From NCBI GenBank assembly GCA_025054935.1, contig JANWZD010000003.1, positions 248,001-312,000 on the forward strand: a stretch of DNA of 64,000 nt, read 5' to 3'. Below are positions 6,115-60,895 of this stretch, in pieces. The notes under the pieces were generated by a model. That model made no database searches, was not told the origin of the DNA, and was given only the letters and a program-made list of their open reading frames with translations. This stretch comes from Dehalococcoidia bacterium (lineage in GTDB: Bacteria; Chloroflexota; Dehalococcoidia; SpSt-223). Position numbers and translations under genes: made by a program. Numbering within the stretch: position 1 is the stretch's first letter; every line of letters begins with the position of its first letter.

Positions 6115-7067
6115 TCGCGCACCAGCAGGATGTCCGGATTCGCGATCAGCCAGTCGAGGGTGCGGATAACTCCCTCCCGGATCGACAGTTTCGGCCGCCA
6201 GCCGAGAGCGCGGACGCGGCGGGTGTCGAGGAAGATGAACGGACTGTCGCCGACCCAGCCGCGGTCTCCCCCGGTGTAGGTGATCGTCGGCGTGAGCCCC
6301 AGCCGCTCTGTGATCCAGCGGACCGAGTCGTTCACCTCGCAGTACTCGTCGGTGCCGAGGTTGTAGATGTTCACGCGGGCGTCGGCCTTCTCAATGACGC
6401 AGAGCATGGCATCGATGCAGTCTTGGACATAGAGGTACGATTTTCGCTGCCTGCCGTTGCCGAGCACCTCAAGGCGGGTAGGATCGGCGCGAAGTTTCTT
6501 ATAGAAGTCGAAGACATGCCCGTGGGTATACCGTTCACCGAGAATAGAGACGAAGCGGAAGATGTACGCTTGAAAGCCGAAGCCTTCGCAGTAGGCGGTG
6601 ATCAGCCCCTCGCCGGCGACTTTGGACGCCCCGTAAAGCGAAGTCTGGATTGGGAAGGGCGCGTCTTCAGGCGTTGGGAAAACGGTCGCGTCGCCATAGA
6701 CGGAGCCGGTGGAGGAGAAGGCGATCCGCCGAACCCCGCTGACCCGCATCGCTTCAAGGACGTTGAACGTCGCGATCGTATTCTGTTCGAGGTCCTTCTT
6801 CGGATGCTTCGTCCCGTGGCGGACATCGGCATTAGCGGCGAGATGGACAACAAAGTCCACTCCTGCCATTGCCTTGGTCAACTGGTCGCAGTCGAGCAGG
6901 TCGGCGGTGATCAGCGTCAACCGCGGCGACCGCAGCGCATCGTCGAGAAAGCGCAGTTGGCCGGTTGAAAAATTGTCATAGACAACGACCTCGTGGCCGT
7001 CGCGGAGTAATCGGTCGACGAGGTGGCTCCCGATAAAGCCCGCGCCGCCAGTCACAAGCCATTTCAC
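6111..7067 (-). CDS. NAD-dependent epimerase/dehydratase (UDP-glucose 4-epimerase-like)
   Basis: 318 residues, extended SDR. It has the motifs GGAGFIGSHL, YDNFSTGQ, an SSTGSVYG segment and catalytic YGASK. The C-terminal substrate region contains GNGRQRKSYLYVQDC, typical of GalE/WbpP-type epimerases. It converts one nucleotide-sugar epimer to another. The GTG start at 7067 overlaps the sugar-transferase stop (GTGA) and is the first codon of the motif MKWLVTGG. Position two in the operon. Confidence 0.9.
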   Translation of the reverse strand: MKWLVTGGAGFIGSHLVDRLLRDGHEVVVYDNFSTGQLRFLDDALRSPRLTLITADLLDCDQLTKAMAGVDFVVHLAANADVRHGTKHPKKDLEQNTIATFNVLEAMRVSGVRRIAFSSTGSVYGDATVFPTPEDAPFPIQTSLYGASKVAGEGLITAYCEGFGFQAYIFRFVSILGERYTHGHVFDFYKKLRADPTRLEVLGNGRQRKSYLYVQDCIDAMLCVIEKADARVNIYNLGTDEYCEVNDSVRWITERLGLTPTITYTGGDRGWVGDSPFIFLDTRRVRALGWRPKLSIREGVIRTLDWLIANPDILLVRE

Positions 7068-8551
7068 GACCCAGTTCCCCGCAAGACAACGAAGATCGTT
7101 CGCCACAAGATCTTCAGGTCGAGCCACAGCGACCAGTTGTCGATGTATTCCAAGTCCATGCGCACCCAATCATCGAAATTGTTGATGGCGTTGCGTCCCC
7201 GCACTTGCCAGAGGCAGGTGATGCCGGGGCGGATGCTCAGCTTCCGCTTGTGCCAAAACTCATAGCGTTCGAGTTCATGGGGGCCTGCGGGACGCGGTCC
7301 GACGAGGCTCATGTGCCCTTGAAGCACGGTCCACAGTTGGGGAAGCTCGTTAATGTCGAACTTGCGCAGCCACTTGCCGAGGGGGGTGACGCGGGGGTCA
7401 TTCTTGATCTTGAACACTGGCCCGCTCATCTCGTTGAGATGAGCGAGCTTCTCCTTCGCTTCGTCGCCGGCGGTCATGGTTGTGAACTTCCAGCTGGTGA
7501 ATCGGACGCCGTTCTGGCCGACAACGTGCCAAGGATAGAAGACGGGAAGATGCGGTGTCGTGATCTTGATCAAAATGGCCGTCACCAGAAAGACCGGCGA
7601 TAAGACCACTAGCAAAATCGACGCTACGACGATATCGAACAGCCGCTTGAGGAACAGATCCTCCGAGTTGAACTTGGGCGGCTGGAGGATCACAGCCGGT
7701 AAGTGAAGCGGCTCGTTATGGTAGACCAGCCGCAGCGATTGCTGCTCGAGGGTAGTGAGCGCCTCCGGGATCACCCACAGCAGCACGCCGAGGTAATCGC
7801 ACGCCCGGATCACCGGGCCGATCCAGTTGCCTCCTTGGGCAGGATGCATCACGAAGACTTGATGGGTCGGCTTGGTGATCAAGATGTCGTTGATATCCTC
7901 GACATTCCCCAAGCAGGGGATCACTGTCCCGTCGAGTGTCAGCGCTGGCTGATCCGGACGAACCCGCAGGTAGCCGAGGATGCTGTACTCGGCTGGTGAG
8001 GTGTTCTCGGCGAGATAGCGCGCCAGCCACGAGAGTCCGGAGTGATCGCCGATCAGGAGAACGCTGCGCGCATAGTAGCCGGCCTTCTGGCGACGGCGGA
8101 AATAGGCGCGCAGCAGGAGGCGCGAGCCGCCAAAGGCGAGCGCCGCCAGCGCCGCGAACGTCGCAAGGAACAGCCGGTTTGAATCGGTGGAGCGGAAGGC
8201 GAGAAGGACAAGCGCGATCATGCCGAGCGCGACCACCGGGGCGACGACCGCTCCGACGACAATGCGGGTGAGGGACTGCTCTAGGAGCGGACGGTAGTTG
8301 CCGCACGCCGACAGCGTCACGAGCGCGCTGACGGCGAAGATCGGCGCTATCCAGAGCACCTCGGTGACCGGGGGGAGATACCAGGGATATGGAAAGGCGC
8401 TCGCGATCTCGCTCGGGACGAAGCGGCTGAGGTGAGGGCTGACCAGCGGGACGGCGAGATTGTAGAGCCGGCGTGCGACAAGATACGCAACAGCAAAGGC
8501 AGCGCCGACAGAGAAGAGGTCGAGCGCCCAGAAGACCCGCCGCGGGATCAC
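7064..8551 (-). CDS. polyprenyl glycosylphosphotransferase (WbaP/ExoY type)
   Basis: 495 residues. Four N-terminal transmembrane helices and a soluble nucleotide-binding-like middle are followed by a membrane re-entrant helix (KRLFDIVVASILLVVLSPVF). The C-terminal catalytic domain ends with the NELPQLWTVL and MSLVGPRP signatures. It transfers sugar-1-phosphate from a nucleotide sugar to undecaprenyl phosphate, starting lipid-linked glycan assembly. It is the first gene of the minus-strand operon. The GTG start has a GAGG about nine bases upstream. Confidence 0.93.
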   Translation of the reverse strand: MIPRRVFWALDLFSVGAAFAVAYLVARRLYNLAVPLVSPHLSRFVPSEIASAFPYPWYLPPVTEVLWIAPIFAVSALVTLSACGNYRPLLEQSLTRIVVGAVVAPVVALGMIALVLLAFRSTDSNRLFLATFAALAALAFGGSRLLLRAYFRRRQKAGYYARSVLLIGDHSGLSWLARYLAENTSPAEYSILGYLRVRPDQPALTLDGTVIPCLGNVEDINDILITKPTHQVFVMHPAQGGNWIGPVIRACDYLGVLLWVIPEALTTLEQQSLRLVYHNEPLHLPAVILQPPKFNSEDLFLKRLFDIVVASILLVVLSPVFLVTAILIKITTPHLPVFYPWHVVGQNGVRFTSWKFTTMTAGDEAKEKLAHLNEMSGPVFKIKNDPRVTPLGKWLRKFDINELPQLWTVLQGHMSLVGPRPAGPHELERYEFWHKRKLSIRPGITCLWQVRGRNAINNFDDWVRMDLEYIDNWSLWLDLKILWRTIFVVLRGTGS

Positions 8552-12345: not shown

Positions 12346-13414
12346 GCCGCAGCGCCCCGGGATCAATTGGGCGGTCGTGCGCACGACCGCCCACCGCGCT
12401 GTCGGCGACAACTGGCTCGAAGTCGGCGAGCCTCTCGAGCAGCTCCGCGCGCGCTATGCCGCCTTCGTCGCCGACGCGAAACACCTGATCGCCGAGTTCA
12501 CCGGCTGGTCCCTGCCGGCTGTGCCGGAGAATGTCGACGTCACCGACCGCGAGGGGTGGGTCGACGTCAATATCGATCAGTTTCGCCGGCTGTTCGACGC
12601 GCTCACCCCTGCGTTCCTTCCTGAGCCCGGACCAAGCGCGCTCAATCGTGTTCTTGCGGGGGCAGGCGCCACTGCGCTCTCGGTGCAGGTCGGCTTGCTG
12701 CTCGGTTTTCTCGCGCGGCTGGTGCTCGGGCAGTTCGATGTCGCGCTCTTCGGCGCCGCCGCCGACCGGCGGGTACTCTTTGTCGAGCCGAACATTCAGG
12801 GGATGATCGAGTCGATGGGGGTCGACCCCGACTCGTTTCGCTTCTATCTCAGCCTCCACGAGACCACGCATGCCGCCGAGTTCGCCGCACACCCGTGGCT
12901 GGCTGAGTATCTAATGGACTTGCTTCGCGAATATGCCGGCTCGGCCGGCGACAACTCCCTCTCCGCTCTTCTCGGGCATCTGGTCGGTCATTATCTCGAC
13001 GACGAGCCGGCCGGCGCGCTCGGCCACTTGATCTCGGAGGAGCAGCGCGCCATCTTTGCCCGGCTTCAGGCCGTGATGAGCCTAATCGAGGGGTACAGCG
13101 ATTACGTGATGCACGAACTCGCCCCCCGCCGGCTGCGAGACGCTGCGGCAATCGAGCGGGAATTCGCCGCGCGGCGTCAGCACCGCTCGGCGCTCCGCCG
13201 GGTTCTCTTCCAGCTGACCGGCCTCGATCTCAAGCTCGCCCAGTATGAGATGGGCAGACAGTTTGTCTCGCAGGTCATTGAACAGGCCGGCCGCGCTGCT
13301 ATCGACCATGTTTGGCGCGGCCCCGAATCGCTCCCCACGCTGAGTGAGATCCAGCACCCCTCCCGCTGGCTCAAACGGATGGGGTTCGCCGCATCGGCCG
13401 AGGACGAGAGGTGA
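12332..13414 (+). CDS. DUF2342-type zinc-dependent metalloprotease (F420-biosynthesis-associated zincin family)
   Basis: 360 residues. The zinc-binding HETTH (H176, E177, H180) sits in a long helix, and the N-terminus [15 protein letters not shown] and [10 protein letters not shown] are typical of this family. The family occurs in Actinobacteria and Chloroflexota and is named for its genomic association with coenzyme F420 genes; its substrate is unknown. No transmembrane helix or signal peptide is obvious. The TTG start at 12332 overlaps the gatB 3' end by 14 nt, so it is probably co-transcribed with gatB. Confidence 0.82.
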
Positions 13415-13417
13415 GCC

Positions 13418-16159
13418 GTGCTCCGAGCCGGTCCGGTCGCTCTCGCGGTTCTGAGCGCGGCGGCGCTCGCCTTTGCGCTGCGGGTTGCCGGGCTCGGCAC
13501 CCAAAGCCTGTGGTATGACGAGGGGTTCAGCGTCTTCCTTGCCTCCCGGCCGCTTGCTGACATCACGCAGCTGACTGCCGGCGATATCCATCCGCCGTTC
13601 TACTACTACCTCCTGCACGGATGGATCGCGCTCACCGGCACGAACGAATTTGCGCTCCGCTTTCTCTCCCTCCTTCCTTCTGTGCTGACTGTCCCGCTAG
13701 TCGCGCGTCTTGCCGGCCGCGGGGGGCGGGTGGCGGCGGCAGTCGGCGCGATTTTCGCCGCCTGCGCTCCAGCAGCGGTGTGGTATGGCCAAGAAGCGCG
13801 GATGTATGCGCTGGTAGTCTTCCTTGTCGCGCTTTCGCTCGACCGCTTCCTCGCTCTTCTCGAGCGCGGGAGCGTGGTTGCCGGCGCGGGCTGGGGCATC
13901 GCGTCAGTCACCGCCATCTACAGCCACTTCTATGGCGCGTTCGTCGTGGCAGCAGAAGCGGTGGTCGCCGCAGCGTGGGCGCTTCTCCACCTCTGCAGGC
14001 CTGCCGGGCGCCGTCGGGCGGCCGCCTTTGCCGCGGGCTTCGCCCTGATCGCGCTCTCCTACCTTCCATGGCTCAGCCCGGCACTGACGCGGCTGGAAGG
14101 CGACGCGAGCTACTACCAAGGCGCAATCGATCCTGCGCAGGTGTTCCGGGAGGCCTCGACCCTGATTGCCGTGGGAGGAACCCTCGACGGCGTTCTTGTG
14201 CCGGTTGGGGGGATCGCCTTTGGAGTCGCGCTGCTGGGCGGCGTCTGGGCGCTCCGCCGCCGGCCGCTTTTCGTCAGCCTCTATCTCGCTGCGGTTGCGC
14301 TGCCCGTCGTGCTGCTTCTCCTCGTTAGCTGGAACCGCCCGAAGTTCCATCCGCGTTACCTCCTGATTACCCTTCCCGCTGCGCAGGCGCTTGCCGCGGG
14401 CGGGGTCGGCTGGCTTCTCGCGCCCTCTCGGCTGCGCGGCGGTCGGATTGCCGGCGCCGGTCTTGCCCTCTCGCTCGCGGTGCCGTGGGCGGTGTCGCTC
14501 ACCAATGCTGCCTTCGACAGCCGCTACGCGCGGGATGACTGGCGGGCGGCGGTCGCCGCGCTTGAGGTTGCCCCCGATGATGCGGTTGTTCTGGTCTCGG
14601 GCCACGCCTTCCCCGTCTTCGCCTACTACTACGGCAACCGGCCATTCACGCCGCTGCCCGAGGTGCTCACTCTCTCCACCCGCGAGACGCTCGGCTACCC
14701 CGTGGCCGCCGTTTTGAATGACCTCGCCGCGCGCGCCCGTCGGCTTTGGGTGGTGCGCTGGCAAGATGAGGTGGTTGATCCGAACGGCGTGCTTACGCGG
14801 CTGCTCCTCTCGGGCGCGGACCGCGAACCGCTCGACGCAGCCCCGCACGGCGTCGGTATCGAACGCTACCGCTTCCGACCGGGAGCACAGTTTGCAGCCG
14901 CGCCGGCGATCGCCCACCAGGTGGAGGCAAACTTCGGCAACGCACTCCGCTTGCTCGGCTATGACCGTCTCGGCGCCGAGCCTGCAGCGCCGCTCGCTGT
15001 CTCCGCGGGCGAGAGCATGACGCTGACGTTCTACTGGCAGGCGATGGGCGAGCTGCAGGCAGACTATAAGGTGGCGCTTCGTCTCGTCGACGAGCGCGGG
15101 ATCGTCTGGGGCCGCAACGACCGGCGGCCAGCGGCCTATTTCTATCCGACAGTGCGTTGGAAGCCCGGCGAGATCGTCTTTGGCGACCTGCCTGTGCCCC
15201 TCGACCCGACCACGCCTCCCGGCGTCTATTGGCTGGAGGTTGAGGTGTATGCAGAAGACGGCCCTCGTCTTGCGCCGCTCGATGTGCTCGATGCGCTTGG
15301 CAACCGGGCCGGCCACGCGCTGCGGCTCGCCCGTCTCCACGTCCTAGTGCCGTCGGGCGCGCAGCCGCCCGTCACCCTCGCGCGGTCGACCAGCGCCTTC
15401 TTGGGGGGGGTCCAGGTTGTCGGCCTTCCCCCCCGGCGGGACCTCGGCGTGGTGCGCCCCGGCGAGCGGGTGCTGCTCGAGCTCTATTGGCGGCGAGCTG
15501 CGGGCGGCGCTGTGGGGCTCGTTGCTCGACTGCAGCAAGGGGAGCGCCTGATTGCAGAACGGAGCGACCCCCTCGGCAGGAGCGACGAGATCGAGCAATG
15601 GCCGGCGGGCTGGACGTGGCGAGCGCTCTGGACCTTCTCGATCCCCCCCGACGCTCCTGCAGGACCAGTCGAGGCGCAGCTCTTCGACGGGCAAACCGCG
15701 CTTACCCTCCTCACCGCGACGGTCGACCCCGGAGAGCGGTCTTTCATTCTGCCCGCCGACCTCGCGATCCCGCTTGCGGCACCGTTCGGCGATCTTGCTG
15801 TTCTTCGCGGGTGGGAGGCCGACCGGCTGACGGCACCGGCAGGCCAGGCCTTCACTATTCGTCTCGTCTGGCAGGCGCGCCGCGCCTCACACACCCCGCT
15901 GAAAGTGTTTCTCCATCTTGTCGACCAGACAGGACGGGTTGTTGCCCAGCGCGACGCGGAACCGGGTGACGGCCGCTGGCCAACGACGGGGTGGCTTCCT
16001 GACCAAGTGGTGATCGACCGGGCGTTGGTGACGCTGCCCACCACATTGCCCCCCGGCGAATACGGCATCGTGGTGGGGCTGTACGATCCGGTCAGCGGCG
16101 AGCGGCTGCCGACCAGCGGAGGTGACAGCCTTCGTCTCGGCACAATCACTGTTCAGTGA
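13418..16159 (+). CDS. large ArnT/PMT-type (GT39/GT83-like) membrane glycosyltransferase with beta-sandwich C-terminal region
   Basis: 913 residues. The first ~360 residues hold about ten hydrophobic helices. Near the N-terminus is SLWYDEGFS with the conserved catalytic-type acidic residues, and IHPPFYYYLLHGW is the usual second motif. Such enzymes move sugars from polyprenyl phosphate onto proteins or lipids outside the membrane. The remaining ~550 residues look extracytoplasmic, with at least two or three repeats of the kind YWQAMGELQADYKVALRLVD / LVWQARRASHTPLKVFLHLVD. This suggests tandem immunoglobulin-like or carbohydrate-binding folds. The GTG start lies 3 bp after the zincin stop. Confidence 0.85.
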   Translation: MLRAGPVALAVLSAAALAFALRVAGLGTQSLWYDEGFSVFLASRPLADITQLTAGDIHPPFYYYLLHGWIALTGTNEFALRFLSLLPSVLTVPLVARLAGRGGRVAAAVGAIFAACAPAAVWYGQEARMYALVVFLVALSLDRFLALLERGSVVAGAGWGIASVTAIYSHFYGAFVVAAEAVVAAAWALLHLCRPAGRRRAAAFAAGFALIALSYLPWLSPALTRLEGDASYYQGAIDPAQVFREASTLIAVGGTLDGVLVPVGGIAFGVALLGGVWALRRRPLFVSLYLAAVALPVVLLLLVSWNRPKFHPRYLLITLPAAQALAAGGVGWLLAPSRLRGGRIAGAGLALSLAVPWAVSLTNAAFDSRYARDDWRAAVAALEVAPDDAVVLVSGHAFPVFAYYYGNRPFTPLPEVLTLSTRETLGYPVAAVLNDLAARARRLWVVRWQDEVVDPNGVLTRLLLSGADREPLDAAPHGVGIERYRFRPGAQFAAAPAIAHQVEANFGNALRLLGYDRLGAEPAAPLAVSAGESMTLTFYWQAMGELQADYKVALRLVDERGIVWGRNDRRPAAYFYPTVRWKPGEIVFGDLPVPLDPTTPPGVYWLEVEVYAEDGPRLAPLDVLDALGNRAGHALRLARLHVLVPSGAQPPVTLARSTSAFLGGVQVVGLPPRRDLGVVRPGERVLLELYWRRAAGGAVGLVARLQQGERLIAERSDPLGRSDEIEQWPAGWTWRALWTFSIPPDAPAGPVEAQLFDGQTALTLLTATVDPGERSFILPADLAIPLAAPFGDLAVLRGWEADRLTAPAGQAFTIRLVWQARRASHTPLKVFLHLVDQTGRVVAQRDAEPGDGRWPTTGWLPDQVVIDRALVTLPTTLPPGEYGIVVGLYDPVSGERLPTSGGDSLRLGTITVQ

Positions 16160-57523: not shown

Positions 57524-59341
57524 TCAGCGGAGGCTGCTGGGGTCGGGCAGTTTCAGCAGCCCGACCCCTGTCGCATAGTAGCCGTAGGCGCCGCCCGGAC
57601 GGAGCGAGACCGCGTGCTCCAGCAGGAATTTCTGGATCTGATCTGCAGTCCAGTTCGGAAACCGCGACTTGACTAGCGCGGCAGCGCCTGAGACATGGGG
57701 CGCCGCCGCGCTGGTTCCGGCGAAGCCGTACTCTTGGTCCTGGTAGACAAAGACCGAGACATGGCTCGGCGCCGTGATCTCGGGCTTCCAGCGTCCGTCG
57801 AGGGTAGGGCCCCACGAGCTGTAGACCGCCAACTGTCCTGTCTTCCAATCGGCAGCGGCGACTGCGACCGCCCCGCGCGCCGAGGCGGTGTCGACGATAC
57901 TGCGCGAGGCAGAACGGTAGACCGGGGGGATCTCGCCGCGCGCGACTTGGACGCGAAAGAGGGTGGGTGGCCCGCTCTTCTGCTCGACGGCAACCAAGAA
58001 CGAGTCGGTGCCGATCTTTCGGTCGAGCGCGCCGACGATCACCGGTTGGCCTGAGACCGCCCGCCGCTCGAACGAGGCGTAGATCTTGCCCGCACTGTCG
58101 GCGAGGTGCAGCACAAACTCCGCTTGCGGGTTCGCCCAAATAAGCCGCACCAGCGGCAGCACATCGCTGCGCGCCCAGTAGCTGACCGGAATGAACTCGG
58201 GCCCGTCCGGCATGATCGGCACCAGCCCAGGGACCCCGGTCGACTGCCCGAGGACCGACTTATTCCCCTCGTTGCCGGCCGAGACGACGACTAGGACGCC
58301 GCGCTGCCGCGCTTCGTCGATCTTTCTCGCGGCGGGAGACGTGCCGTCGAACGCGAAGTTCGGGAAGCCGAGCGAGATCGAGATGATGTCGACGCGCTGA
58401 CTGAGCAGCCAGTCCATCGCGTTCAGAAACTGAGTGAGGTCGTCGGTATTGGCAAAGAGCAGCGTGGCATCGGGGGCCATCTCATAGATGATCTGGGCGA
58501 CGCCGGTGCCGTGAATATCGGTCTCGCGCTCGAACCCTTTGCCGGTGAAGTCGCGCGCGATGATCTGGCTGGCCGGGGGGAGGTAGCGTCCCTGCAGCTC
58601 GCGATACTTCGCGAAGCTGTCGATGATGCCGACCCGGACGTTTTGCCCCCGGATGCCCGCCGCATGCCACTTGTCAGCGCCGGTGACCTTCACCCCTTCG
58701 ACCGACCCAGAAGACGCCGGCAAAGCCCCCTCGCGCTCCGCGGAGGCGAGCGGAACGACCTCGTCCCGCTCCGGGCGCTGAGGCGCGTCGACGTCGATGA
58801 TCTCGGGAAAGCTGAGCAGCGCGCGGAGGTAATCGAATTCGCGTTGGGCGCTCAACTGGAGCAGACGGTCGATCGGGAGCTGGACCGTGACCCGGTTGTC
58901 GTGCCAACTCTCCACTTCTACTCCCATTGCGCGCAGACGCTGCCCGAACGCCTCCGTATACGGACGGTCGAGGATAAGGACAGCTTCAATGTTGTTGTCA
59001 TCGAGGAGCCCGAGATTGCGCGCCATCGCCTCGGCGGCGGGGAACCCGCCTTCGGAATAAGCGCGGAACAGCAGCACATAGATCGCTGCCAGTTTCGACC
59101 CGTTGGCGGGGTCGAGCAGGCGCGGGTCGACCCGGGCATTGTCGGGGAGCGCTCTCGGTGCGGGAGCGAGGCGCGGCACAGCGGTACTGGTACGCGGCGG
59201 AGGGCCTTGCCCGCGTTCTTGGAAGAGCACAGAAGCGGAGATGCCGAGAATGCCGAGAGCGAGCGCGGCCGCCAGCACGAGACTAGGGAGAAACCAGCGC
59301 CGGCTAGCGAGCTCGTCGAGGGTCAGCGGTCGAGACGGCAT
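57524..59341 (-). CDS. membrane-anchored subtilisin-like (S8) serine protease
   Basis: 605 residues. A single transmembrane helix at 16-40 has a short cytoplasmic N-terminus and no obvious cleavage site, so it is probably anchored with the protease outside. The triad is D241 (VGIIDSFAKY), H277 (DIHGTGVAQI) and S544 (GTSAAAPHVSG), with oxyanion N357 (SAGNEGN). A ~180-residue region precedes the catalytic domain. A ~120-residue insert of beta type lies between the oxyanion Asn and the Ser. AAGGGAGG precedes the ATG. It lies 13 bp after the FHA/SUMF1 gene and is co-transcribed with it. Confidence 0.9.
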   Translation of the reverse strand: MPSRPLTLDELASRRWFLPSLVLAAALALGILGISASVLFQERGQGPPPRTSTAVPRLAPAPRALPDNARVDPRLLDPANGSKLAAIYVLLFRAYSEGGFPAAEAMARNLGLLDDNNIEAVLILDRPYTEAFGQRLRAMGVEVESWHDNRVTVQLPIDRLLQLSAQREFDYLRALLSFPEIIDVDAPQRPERDEVVPLASAEREGALPASSGSVEGVKVTGADKWHAAGIRGQNVRVGIIDSFAKYRELQGRYLPPASQIIARDFTGKGFERETDIHGTGVAQIIYEMAPDATLLFANTDDLTQFLNAMDWLLSQRVDIISISLGFPNFAFDGTSPAARKIDEARQRGVLVVVSAGNEGNKSVLGQSTGVPGLVPIMPDGPEFIPVSYWARSDVLPLVRLIWANPQAEFVLHLADSAGKIYASFERRAVSGQPVIVGALDRKIGTDSFLVAVEQKSGPPTLFRVQVARGEIPPVYRSASRSIVDTASARGAVAVAAADWKTGQLAVYSSWGPTLDGRWKPEITAPSHVSVFVYQDQEYGFAGTSAAAPHVSGAAALVKSRFPNWTADQIQKFLLEHAVSLRPGGAYGYYATGVGLLKLPDPSSLR

Positions 59342-59354
59342 CGGTCCTCCCTTG

Positions 59355-60869
59355 TCATTCCGCGCATCGGAACCCGAGATCGGGGCTCGCCTCGTTCGGA
59401 TGCTGCCAGCCGCGCGCCGTTGTCCGGACATCGCGGCTGTAGTTATTGATTCGAAAGCCGCCCCGGGTCACGCGAAAGCGCTCCTTCGGCACCTCAAACC
59501 CGAGCGGCGCCGCGCCGGGGTACGGCGCATACCAGTCGGCCACCCACTCGCGCGGGCCGCCGGCGACGTCGAGCACGCCGTAAACGCTTGCGCCCTGGGG
59601 GACAGCGCCGGCTGGGCCCCAGGTCTTGCCGAAGGTCGCAATTGGATACGCCGAAAACTTGAAACTGCCGAAGTCAACGCGAGTGGGATCCCAATTGTTC
59701 CCCCACGGATACACCCGTCCGTCGTCGCCTCGCGCCGCTTTCTCCCATTCTGCTTCAGTAGGCAAGCGCCGGCCCTGGGCCTTGCAGTAGTTTTCTGCGT
59801 CGGCGTAGGTGACCCCGACAACTGGCGATTTCGGATCGGCATCGCGCGACCACGCGCCTTGGACACGGTGAGCGGCAGCCCAGCGGCTGAACATCTCGAC
59901 GGTCACCTTTGTGCGGTCGATCGAGTAGGCGGGCAGTTCAACGACACGGACGGGCGCTTCATCCGCTTCGCCGCTCTCCGATCCCATGATGAAGGGGCCA
60001 GCGGGGATCCGCACGAGGGGCATTCCATCGCGGCCGATGCTGCCCGGCTCGCTCCGTCCGCCGAGCGGGGCCCGCGGCGTCGTCACGACGAGGGCAGCCA
60101 ATCCCCCGGCAAGGCAGGCGCAGACACAGAGCGCGGCCACAGTTGCGGTTGCGGCGGCGATCGCGCCGCCTGCGCCTCGCCGCGGCGGCGGGGACGCGGG
60201 GCGGTCGTGCGGCACGCCGCGCGGCAGCGTCGGCGGCAAGTCGCGGGCGGGCCCAGGTCCAAACCGGACGATCACCTCGACATCGCCAATCTGAATTGTG
60301 TCGCCGTCCTGAAGGCGCGTTTCGACCCCCGGCGCGACTGGCGCGCCGTTAATCCGGCTGCCGTTCCGGCTGCCGAGGTCGACATAGACGACGCCCGCCG
60401 CAGTCTGGCGGAACTCGCCGTGGCGGGAAGAGATAGTGGGGCGCGCAAGAGAGAGGTCGTTCTCGTCGCTGCGACCGAGACGAAACGGGAAGGCAGTCAC
60501 CTCAAGCTGGCGGCTGCCGATTGCGGCGCCCCGGATCTCCAGCTGCAGCCGCGGCGCGTCATCCGGCTCCGCGCTCTCGATCACTAGGAGCACGGAGCCG
60601 AGCTGGAGGCGATCGCCGGGAGTGAGGCGGCTGGCCACACCGGGCTGAAGCAGCATCCCGTTGAGGCGGGTGCCGTTCCGGCTGCCGCGGTCGACGAAGG
60701 CGAGCGCGCCATCGCTCAGCGCGATAATCTCGCCGTGCCGGCTTGAAACTGTCGGATGCAGGACGGGGATGCTGTTTTCGGGCGCGCGCCCGACCGTATA
60801 GGGCGGACGATCGAGCGCGATGGTGGTGATCGCGCCGCCGGGGATGGTGATGCGCGCGCGCAGTGCCAT
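59355..60869 (-). CDS. FHA-FHA-transmembrane-SUMF1 (formylglycine-generating-like) protein
   Basis: 504 residues. The first FHA domain (~residues 22-95) has VGRAPENS, SSRHGE and GSRNGT; the second (~125-200) has LGRSDEND, SSRHGEF and GSRNGS. Both keep the phosphothreonine-binding Arg, Ser and His. A Pro-rich linker and one transmembrane helix (~232-262) follow, then an FGE-sulfatase/SUMF1 domain outside (IPAGPFIMGSE, LPTEAEWEKAARG, YPWGN, RVTRGGF). The active-site cysteine pair of true FGE is not evident. It probably senses kinase signals inside and has a binding or modifying role outside. Confidence 0.87.
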   Translation of the reverse strand: MALRARITIPGGAITTIALDRPPYTVGRAPENSIPVLHPTVSSRHGEIIALSDGALAFVDRGSRNGTRLNGMLLQPGVASRLTPGDRLQLGSVLLVIESAEPDDAPRLQLEIRGAAIGSRQLEVTAFPFRLGRSDENDLSLARPTISSRHGEFRQTAAGVVYVDLGSRNGSRINGAPVAPGVETRLQDGDTIQIGDVEVIVRFGPGPARDLPPTLPRGVPHDRPASPPPRRGAGGAIAAATATVAALCVCACLAGGLAALVVTTPRAPLGGRSEPGSIGRDGMPLVRIPAGPFIMGSESGEADEAPVRVVELPAYSIDRTKVTVEMFSRWAAAHRVQGAWSRDADPKSPVVGVTYADAENYCKAQGRRLPTEAEWEKAARGDDGRVYPWGNNWDPTRVDFGSFKFSAYPIATFGKTWGPAGAVPQGASVYGVLDVAGGPREWVADWYAPYPGAAPLGFEVPKERFRVTRGGFRINNYSRDVRTTARGWQHPNEASPDLGFRCAE

Positions 60870-60870
60870 C

Positions 60871-60895
60871 AGCCAGTCAATTATAAGAACTGGCT
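60871..60895 (-). promoter_or_regulatory. palindromic operator centred on the -10 box of the FHA/SUMF1-protease operon
   Basis: Perfect 7-bp inverted repeat AGCCAGT / ACTGGCT with 11 bp between. The centre contains TATAAT (minus strand, 60885-60880), ten bases before the ATG at 60869. A repressor bound here would cover the promoter. Confidence 0.55.

Follow-up and report, generated by a model that had tools for sequence, protein, structure and literature searches.

A putative two-gene envelope unit pairing an FHA–pseudo-FGE membrane protein with a subtilase precursor in Dehalococcoidia

Described systems and the architecture of the locus

The function of many FGE-domain proteins devoid of catalytic cysteines is, to our knowledge, largely open. 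FGS/FGE domains have been proposed to act in conflict systems as lectin-like sensors that bind invaders (PMC8195603, PMC7159879); according to the former, the partner domains of STAND-FGS proteins include FHA and peptidases (PMC8195603), and a third paper describes one CLec locus at which CLec/FGE targets have a trypsin-like peptidase and an S8 peptidase in their vicinity (PMC10907252). In the open-access literature we found no paper combining FHA with FGE, SUMF1 or subtilase, nor one combining FGE-sulfatase with a kinase architecture.

Our own survey covered 121 open reading frames (ORFs) with an FGE domain. Among the 64 in which more than 120 residues precede the domain, 17 match a protein kinase, seven a TIR_2, three a Trypsin_2 and two a caspase domain, counts that do not represent independent events since a number of the kinases (L150, L152, L156, L157, L160, L161, L169) appear to be orthologues of each other. 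FHA was absent from the 25 families shown (of 26) for these 64 proteins, and a profile search was likewise negative. An internal hydrophobic segment lies ahead of the FGE domain in 30/121 ORFs, and kinase-TM-FGE as well as TIR-TM-FGE proteins recur in Chloroflexota. At one Anaerolineaceae locus (L069), a kinase-TM-FGE gene (6150-8105) is followed after about 4.5 kb by two ORFs with FHA (12663-15632), i.e., writer-FGE and reader domains share one neighbourhood.

The window, by which we mean the whole analysed stretch of 64,000 nucleotides from a Dehalococcoidia bacterium, contains the following features:

59355..60869, minus strand: predicted FHA-FHA-TM-pseudoFGE membrane protein, an ORF of 504 aa (Pfam; orthologue at L012 10001-11524)
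60579..60797, minus strand: FHA domain 1, residues about 25-97 (R28, S42, H45, N65)
60261..60482, minus strand: FHA domain 2, residues about 130-203 (R133, S147, H150, N169)
60075..60176, minus strand: predicted transmembrane helix region, residues 232-265, with the Cys cluster CVCAC
59358..60017, minus strand: FGE-sulfatase (SUMF1-fold) domain, residues 285-504, without either catalytic Cys
59342..59354, minus strand: intergenic gap of 13 bp with a Shine-Dalgarno-like AGGGAGG before the ATG of the S8 gene
57524..59341, minus strand: S8 subtilase precursor of 605 aa, with a predicted N-terminal membrane helix at about 15-42, a predicted propeptide fold at about 83-185 and a catalytic domain with a beta-rich insert
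60880..60885, minus strand: TATAAT, unique in the window, 10 bp upstream of the FHA-FGE ATG

An earlier sequence-only reading of this DNA had described two intact FHA domains, a membrane helix and a SUMF1-fold domain beyond it, and this description is borne out by Pfam, by the hydrophobic stretch and by the residues of the phosphothreonine site. In Pfam, FHA is matched twice (E 6.7e-30), and FGE-sulfatase PF03781 scores 158.4 bits at residues 285-503 (E 3.4e-46; cut-off 23.3); the Pfam families of the protein are FHA, an FHA-like YscD model and FGE, with no NTPase domain among them. The only hydrophobic stretch comprises residues 232-265, and its CVCAC cluster is retained in the relative described below. 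Lys and Arg residues before and after the helix number 4/3 in the window protein and 3/1 in the relative, which amounts to a weak N-in bias. The predicted topology has the FHA domains inside and the FGE domain outside.

Each FHA domain (PF00498) has the Arg, Ser, His and Asn of the phosphothreonine site (R28/S42/H45/N65 and R133/S147/H150/N169), and all eight residues are identical in the relative, in keeping with the earlier claim that these domains bind phosphothreonine; a loss of such residues in homologues, which the sequence-only reading had named as an argument against itself, is thus not seen in this orthologue. The pair would probably bind phosphothreonine peptides. The same reading had recommended a search for Ser/Thr kinases, and the genome indeed yields ten Pkinase matches over cut-off; none lies inside the window, and about 68 kb separate the locus from the nearest one on its contig. 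The genome (G000) has eleven FHA matches in all, two of which are those of the FHA-FGE protein: G000:C1:91324-92271 and G000:C2:121754-122650 contribute three each, in long open frames of 986 and 1009 aa, and the remaining five, with the FHA-FGE pair included, sit in frames of 243-519 aa.

Given the kinase and TIR domains that precede FGE, and the internal hydrophobic segments, in other FGE proteins, the window protein appears to be an FHA version of a known plan, namely a cytoplasmic signalling domain, a membrane helix and a C-terminal FGE-like ectodomain. It shares with the membrane Ser/Thr kinases of Chloroflexota that end in an FGE domain (e.g., L013, L069, L150, L154) the cytoplasmic phospho-signalling domain, the hydrophobic helix and the C-terminal FGE-like domain, but has an FHA pair (a reader) in place of the kinase (a writer), and an S8 gene adjoins it. 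With the STAND/EAD-FGS conflict proteins (PMC8195603, PMC7159879), it shares the C-terminal position of the FGE domain, whereas it has no NTPase domain, possesses a membrane helix and is not diversified. The fold is that of SUMF1/FGE and SUMF2, but the Cys pair of SUMF1 is lacking and the domain is fused to FHA-TM. The architecture is unusual as a combination, just as the sequence-only reading had it, but the placement of C-terminal FGE domains on membrane signalling proteins is a recurrent one.

Fold and missing cysteines of the outer domain

A structural model of the FHA-FGE protein, for which the window protein, its orthologue and 42 FGE fragments (picked from 104) served as input, has a mean pLDDT of 78.6 and a pTM of 0.51, with values above 90 for most of the FGE part and below 50 for residues 207-272. 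In a structure search the outer domain of this model aligns best with CalU17 among the entries named here (Z 28.3; rmsd 2.2, 221 aligned residues), followed by the listed FGE entries (Z 23.8-24.9; 1y1e, Z 24.6) and SUMF2 (1y4j, listed as human FGE paralogue; Z 23.9). Fold and sequence matches of the outer domain include members that are not FGEs, that is, SUMF2, the T9SS ring protein PorK and a Treponema variable protein.

In the alignment to human FGE, the active-site cysteines C336 and C341, the catalytic copper-binding pair, have no counterpart in the window's outer domain, and its active-site segment (residues 466-487) contains no Cys at all; Cys of any number occurs in this segment in only 3/44 aligned FGE rows. 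Two other loci have CSFYKC in the active-site loop (L037 1978-3036 and L071 9629-10705), with the cysteines five residues apart as in human FGE, and for these two rows true FGE-type chemistry is possible. A PF00884 sulfatase was not detected in the window's own genome, which is listed as 96.81% complete (E 0.001, three candidates scored; control detected in 10/14), and its only PF03781 match is that of the FHA-FGE protein.

The strong Pfam and fold matches would, by themselves, suit a true formylglycine-generating enzyme acting on a non-sulfatase substrate. With both catalytic cysteines missing and no PF00884 sulfatase detected, we consider such an enzyme most improbable, and formylglycine generation, which the sequence-only reading had implied for this domain, is rejected as its activity. 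The outer domain is, as judged from its sequence, a pseudo-FGE with a SUMF1 fold and no recognisable catalytic centre, for which the absence of the Cys pair and of a detectable sulfatase makes a binding role likelier than catalysis.

The subtilase gene and the pair in a second genome

That an S8 protease gene follows after 13 bp was likewise seen correctly in the earlier reading, and the encoded protein has an intact triad: the Pfam match is clear (E 8.5e-33), and D241, H277 and S544 as well as the oxyanion residue N357 are invariant in 13/13 aligned subtilases (two orthologues and 11 further S8 loci). In its model (mean pLDDT 69.0), a helix at the N-terminus is followed by a module of beta-alpha-beta-beta-alpha-beta topology (about 117-185) and by a subtilisin domain that contains a beta-rich insert (about 380-470); the model scores Z 31.8-33.0 against the 50 structures listed; pro-subtilisin E (3whi) aligns to residues 116-604 (Z 32.9; rmsd 3.8, 320 aligned). 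Subtilisins normally self-process, and since the helix precedes the predicted propeptide, self-processing would leave the mature protease unanchored. The former description of an anchored subtilase thus fits the precursor, with its N-terminal helix, but is doubtful for the mature enzyme, which, according to this model, may be released. Lys and Arg counts around the helix (2/3 in the window, 1/2 in the relative) do not favour an N-in orientation.

Mycosins of T7SS are membrane-associated subtilases, and in this they resemble the S8 precursor. The window protein shares the NCBIfam match to TIGR03921, but at 74.9 bits it stays far below the cut-off of 278.75 and, compared with the T7SS mycosin, has its helix at the N-terminus; an identity as mycosin was hence rejected.

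The sole full-length relative of the FHA-FGE protein that we found is from 'Dehalococcoidia bacterium KatS3mg060' (L012; G002 in the genome searches), where the FHA-FGE protein is 73% and the S8 protein 80% identical. In the window, a glyoxalase-like gene (45-bp gap), an amidohydrolase gene and Lon lie upstream of the FHA-FGE gene on the same strand, and the ClpB gene converges on the pair from the opposite side. The gene order from Lon to ClpB is the same in KatS3mg060; there, 217 bp separate the glyoxalase and FHA-FGE genes, and the gap between the FHA-FGE gene and the conserved S8 start is 14 bp. With the same order and pair in a second genome, the association of the two genes is more than chance.

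The relative has a single TATAAT in 20 kb, located 6 bp before the same FHA-FGE start. Since 1.1 such hexamers are expected by chance in the window (and 0.36 in the relative's 20 kb), the weight of the motif is confined to its place before the ATG, for which 0.14 are expected by chance, and to its recurrence in the relative; the motif is missing from the output of a promoter scan because it lacks a suitable -35 box. The spacing suggests co-transcription, and these findings would fit a unit of the FHA-FGE and S8 genes that has a separate start point and a leader that is short or lacking.

Comparison of the two genomes also reveals how differently the parts of the pair evolve. The FGE domain is 91% identical (203/224; its C part 92%) with a dN/dS of 0.056, and ClpB is 93% identical with a dN/dS of 0.045, whereas FHA1 and FHA2 are only 61% and 60% identical (dN/dS 0.22 and 0.21), ratios which are rough because dS is about 1; in terms of dN, the rate of the outer domain is about a quarter of that of the FHA domains. 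For the S8 protein, the catalytic parts are 86% and the helix and stalk 58% identical. The outer domain is under strong purifying selection and evolves at about the pace of ClpB.

This constraint bears on whether the pair could be a counter-invader module in which the FGE domain senses the invader and the protease is the effector, as has been proposed for STAND-FGS. The peptidase and FHA associations quoted at the outset from PMC8195603, and the CLec/FGE targets near peptidases quoted from PMC10907252, point in this direction, as do the matches of the S8 protein to a subtilase model of PADLOC (E 1.7e-16) and, with less strength, to IetS models (best E 2.8e-6), matches which any subtilase might give. 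The FHA-FGE protein, however, has no PADLOC match, an NTPase domain is absent from both proteins, and the outer domain is highly conserved rather than diversified; no PF00078 reverse transcriptase was detected in the own genome by a profile search (control detected in 3/14). We thus regard a conflict module as quite improbable. The lack of diversification and of a detectable reverse transcriptase also argues against a hypervariable antigen sensor, and a DGR-diversified CLec/FGE sensor was rejected on the same grounds.

Proposed function and distribution

We tentatively favour, at somewhat less than an even chance, the view that the pair encodes an envelope signalling unit with a receptor that docks on phosphothreonine inside and, through its outer domain, on a conserved partner, which may be the protease. 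The two cytoplasmic FHA domains would bind a Thr-phosphorylated partner, probably a Ser/Thr kinase of the cell or a kinase substrate; the outer SUMF1-fold domain would bind a protein or glycan that is conserved and lies beyond the cytoplasm; and the subtilisin-type protease would be synthesised as a zymogen that is bound to the membrane and carries a propeptide. Most likely, the two products would be linked in one of two ways: receptor and protease share an outer partner on which they act, or the protease (or the propeptide) is itself bound by the pseudo-FGE, which governs its activation or release depending on the phosphorylation state inside. As the only other gene of the presumed unit encodes it, the best candidate partner is the protease, or its propeptide. 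This view draws on the domains with their intact FHA and S8 residues, on the missing Cys pair and sulfatase, on the fold members that are not FGEs, on the constraint on the outer domain, on the ten Pkinase matches, on the kinase-TM-FGE proteins of the phylum, on the pro-subtilisin E alignment and on the spacing and TATAAT common to both genomes. Against it count the distance to the nearest Pkinase match on the contig, the charge counts around both helices and, from the searches described below, the restriction of the pair to two genomes, the other FGE loci without such an S8 gene in their flanks and the third genome of the genus, in which neither gene was found.

Independence of protease and receptor is nearly as likely as the coupled reading. 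The pseudo-FGE would then be a ligand sensor of an outside-in receptor, the FHA domains would recruit a phosphorylated partner upon ligand binding, and the S8 protein would be an independent exported protease whose gene is adjacent by coincidence. In favour of this, C-terminal FGE domains are found on kinases and TIR proteins, and S8 relatives in the class occur without an FGE gene on the short stretches examined (L114-L131). Against it speak the spacing of 13 and 14 bp in the two genomes, the Shine-Dalgarno-like gap and the TATAAT before the first gene in both.

Returning to the coupled reading, it is tempting to speculate about its most specific form, an inside-out switch in which Thr phosphorylation read by the FHA domains makes the pseudo-FGE ectodomain capture or free the subtilase zymogen. 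We consider this form unlikely; if true, kinase signalling would control extracellular proteolysis, and the switch would be a bacterial counterpart of control by SUMF2-like pseudo-enzymes. The locus places a pseudo-FGE that evolves about as slowly as ClpB across a predicted helix from two intact phosphothreonine readers and beside one candidate partner, and thus provides a small system for studying the ligands of a pseudo-FGE ectodomain and a possible control of their binding by cytoplasmic phosphorylation.

The sequence-only reading had proposed to look for a neighbourhood conserved across Chloroflexota, and as far as our searches extend this check fails, as the fusion occurs in two genomes of one genus. 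Among the matches listed for 393 genomes of the class, those spanning FHA and FGE come from the own genome and G002 only; the fusion was found in the same two among 60 relatives, and, among the matches listed, in the own genome alone for 400 genomes of the phylum, a sample to which G002 does not belong. A profile scan of 193 loci (with an FHA profile made from eleven seeds) detected FGE ORFs in 134, of which 11 are from the two genomes and all carry the fusion (11/11). In none of the 123 others, which are loci and not independent genomes, is FHA in the same ORF as FGE, nor does an S8 gene of this kind lie near FGE within flanks of 1.5 to 10 kb. Of 355 matching plasmid records, none has a single site that spans 80% of the query. 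Divergent FHA-FGE fusions may exist elsewhere, since three best candidates were scored per genome in the class-wide and phylum-wide searches, 80 of 218 relatives were retained, and the search for the S8 protein extended to 60 relatives.

The genus comprises two genomes besides the window's own, and one of them has the fusion. In the assembly of the third (G001), neither an FHA-FGE nor an S8 orthologue was found; the clpB contig ends within the gene, the best glyoxalase match is 45% identical, and the best Lon match (79%) is on a 6.3-kb contig without a match to the window's neighbouring genes. Both genes are likely absent from G001, although these contig ends leave this short of proof. With the pair known from two genomes, functional coupling and shared descent are not separable.

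The wider set of FGE loci offers two further arrangements. At a Nitrospirales locus (L015 5353-6840), an N-terminal hydrophobic stretch precedes a Trypsin_2 domain fused to an FGE domain, so that protease and pseudo-FGE are there one chain and in the window two genes. Tandem FGE-domain ORFs of about 300 aa each are present at 11/13 loci from Nitrospira and relatives (L019-L031; e.g., L022 9890-11712).
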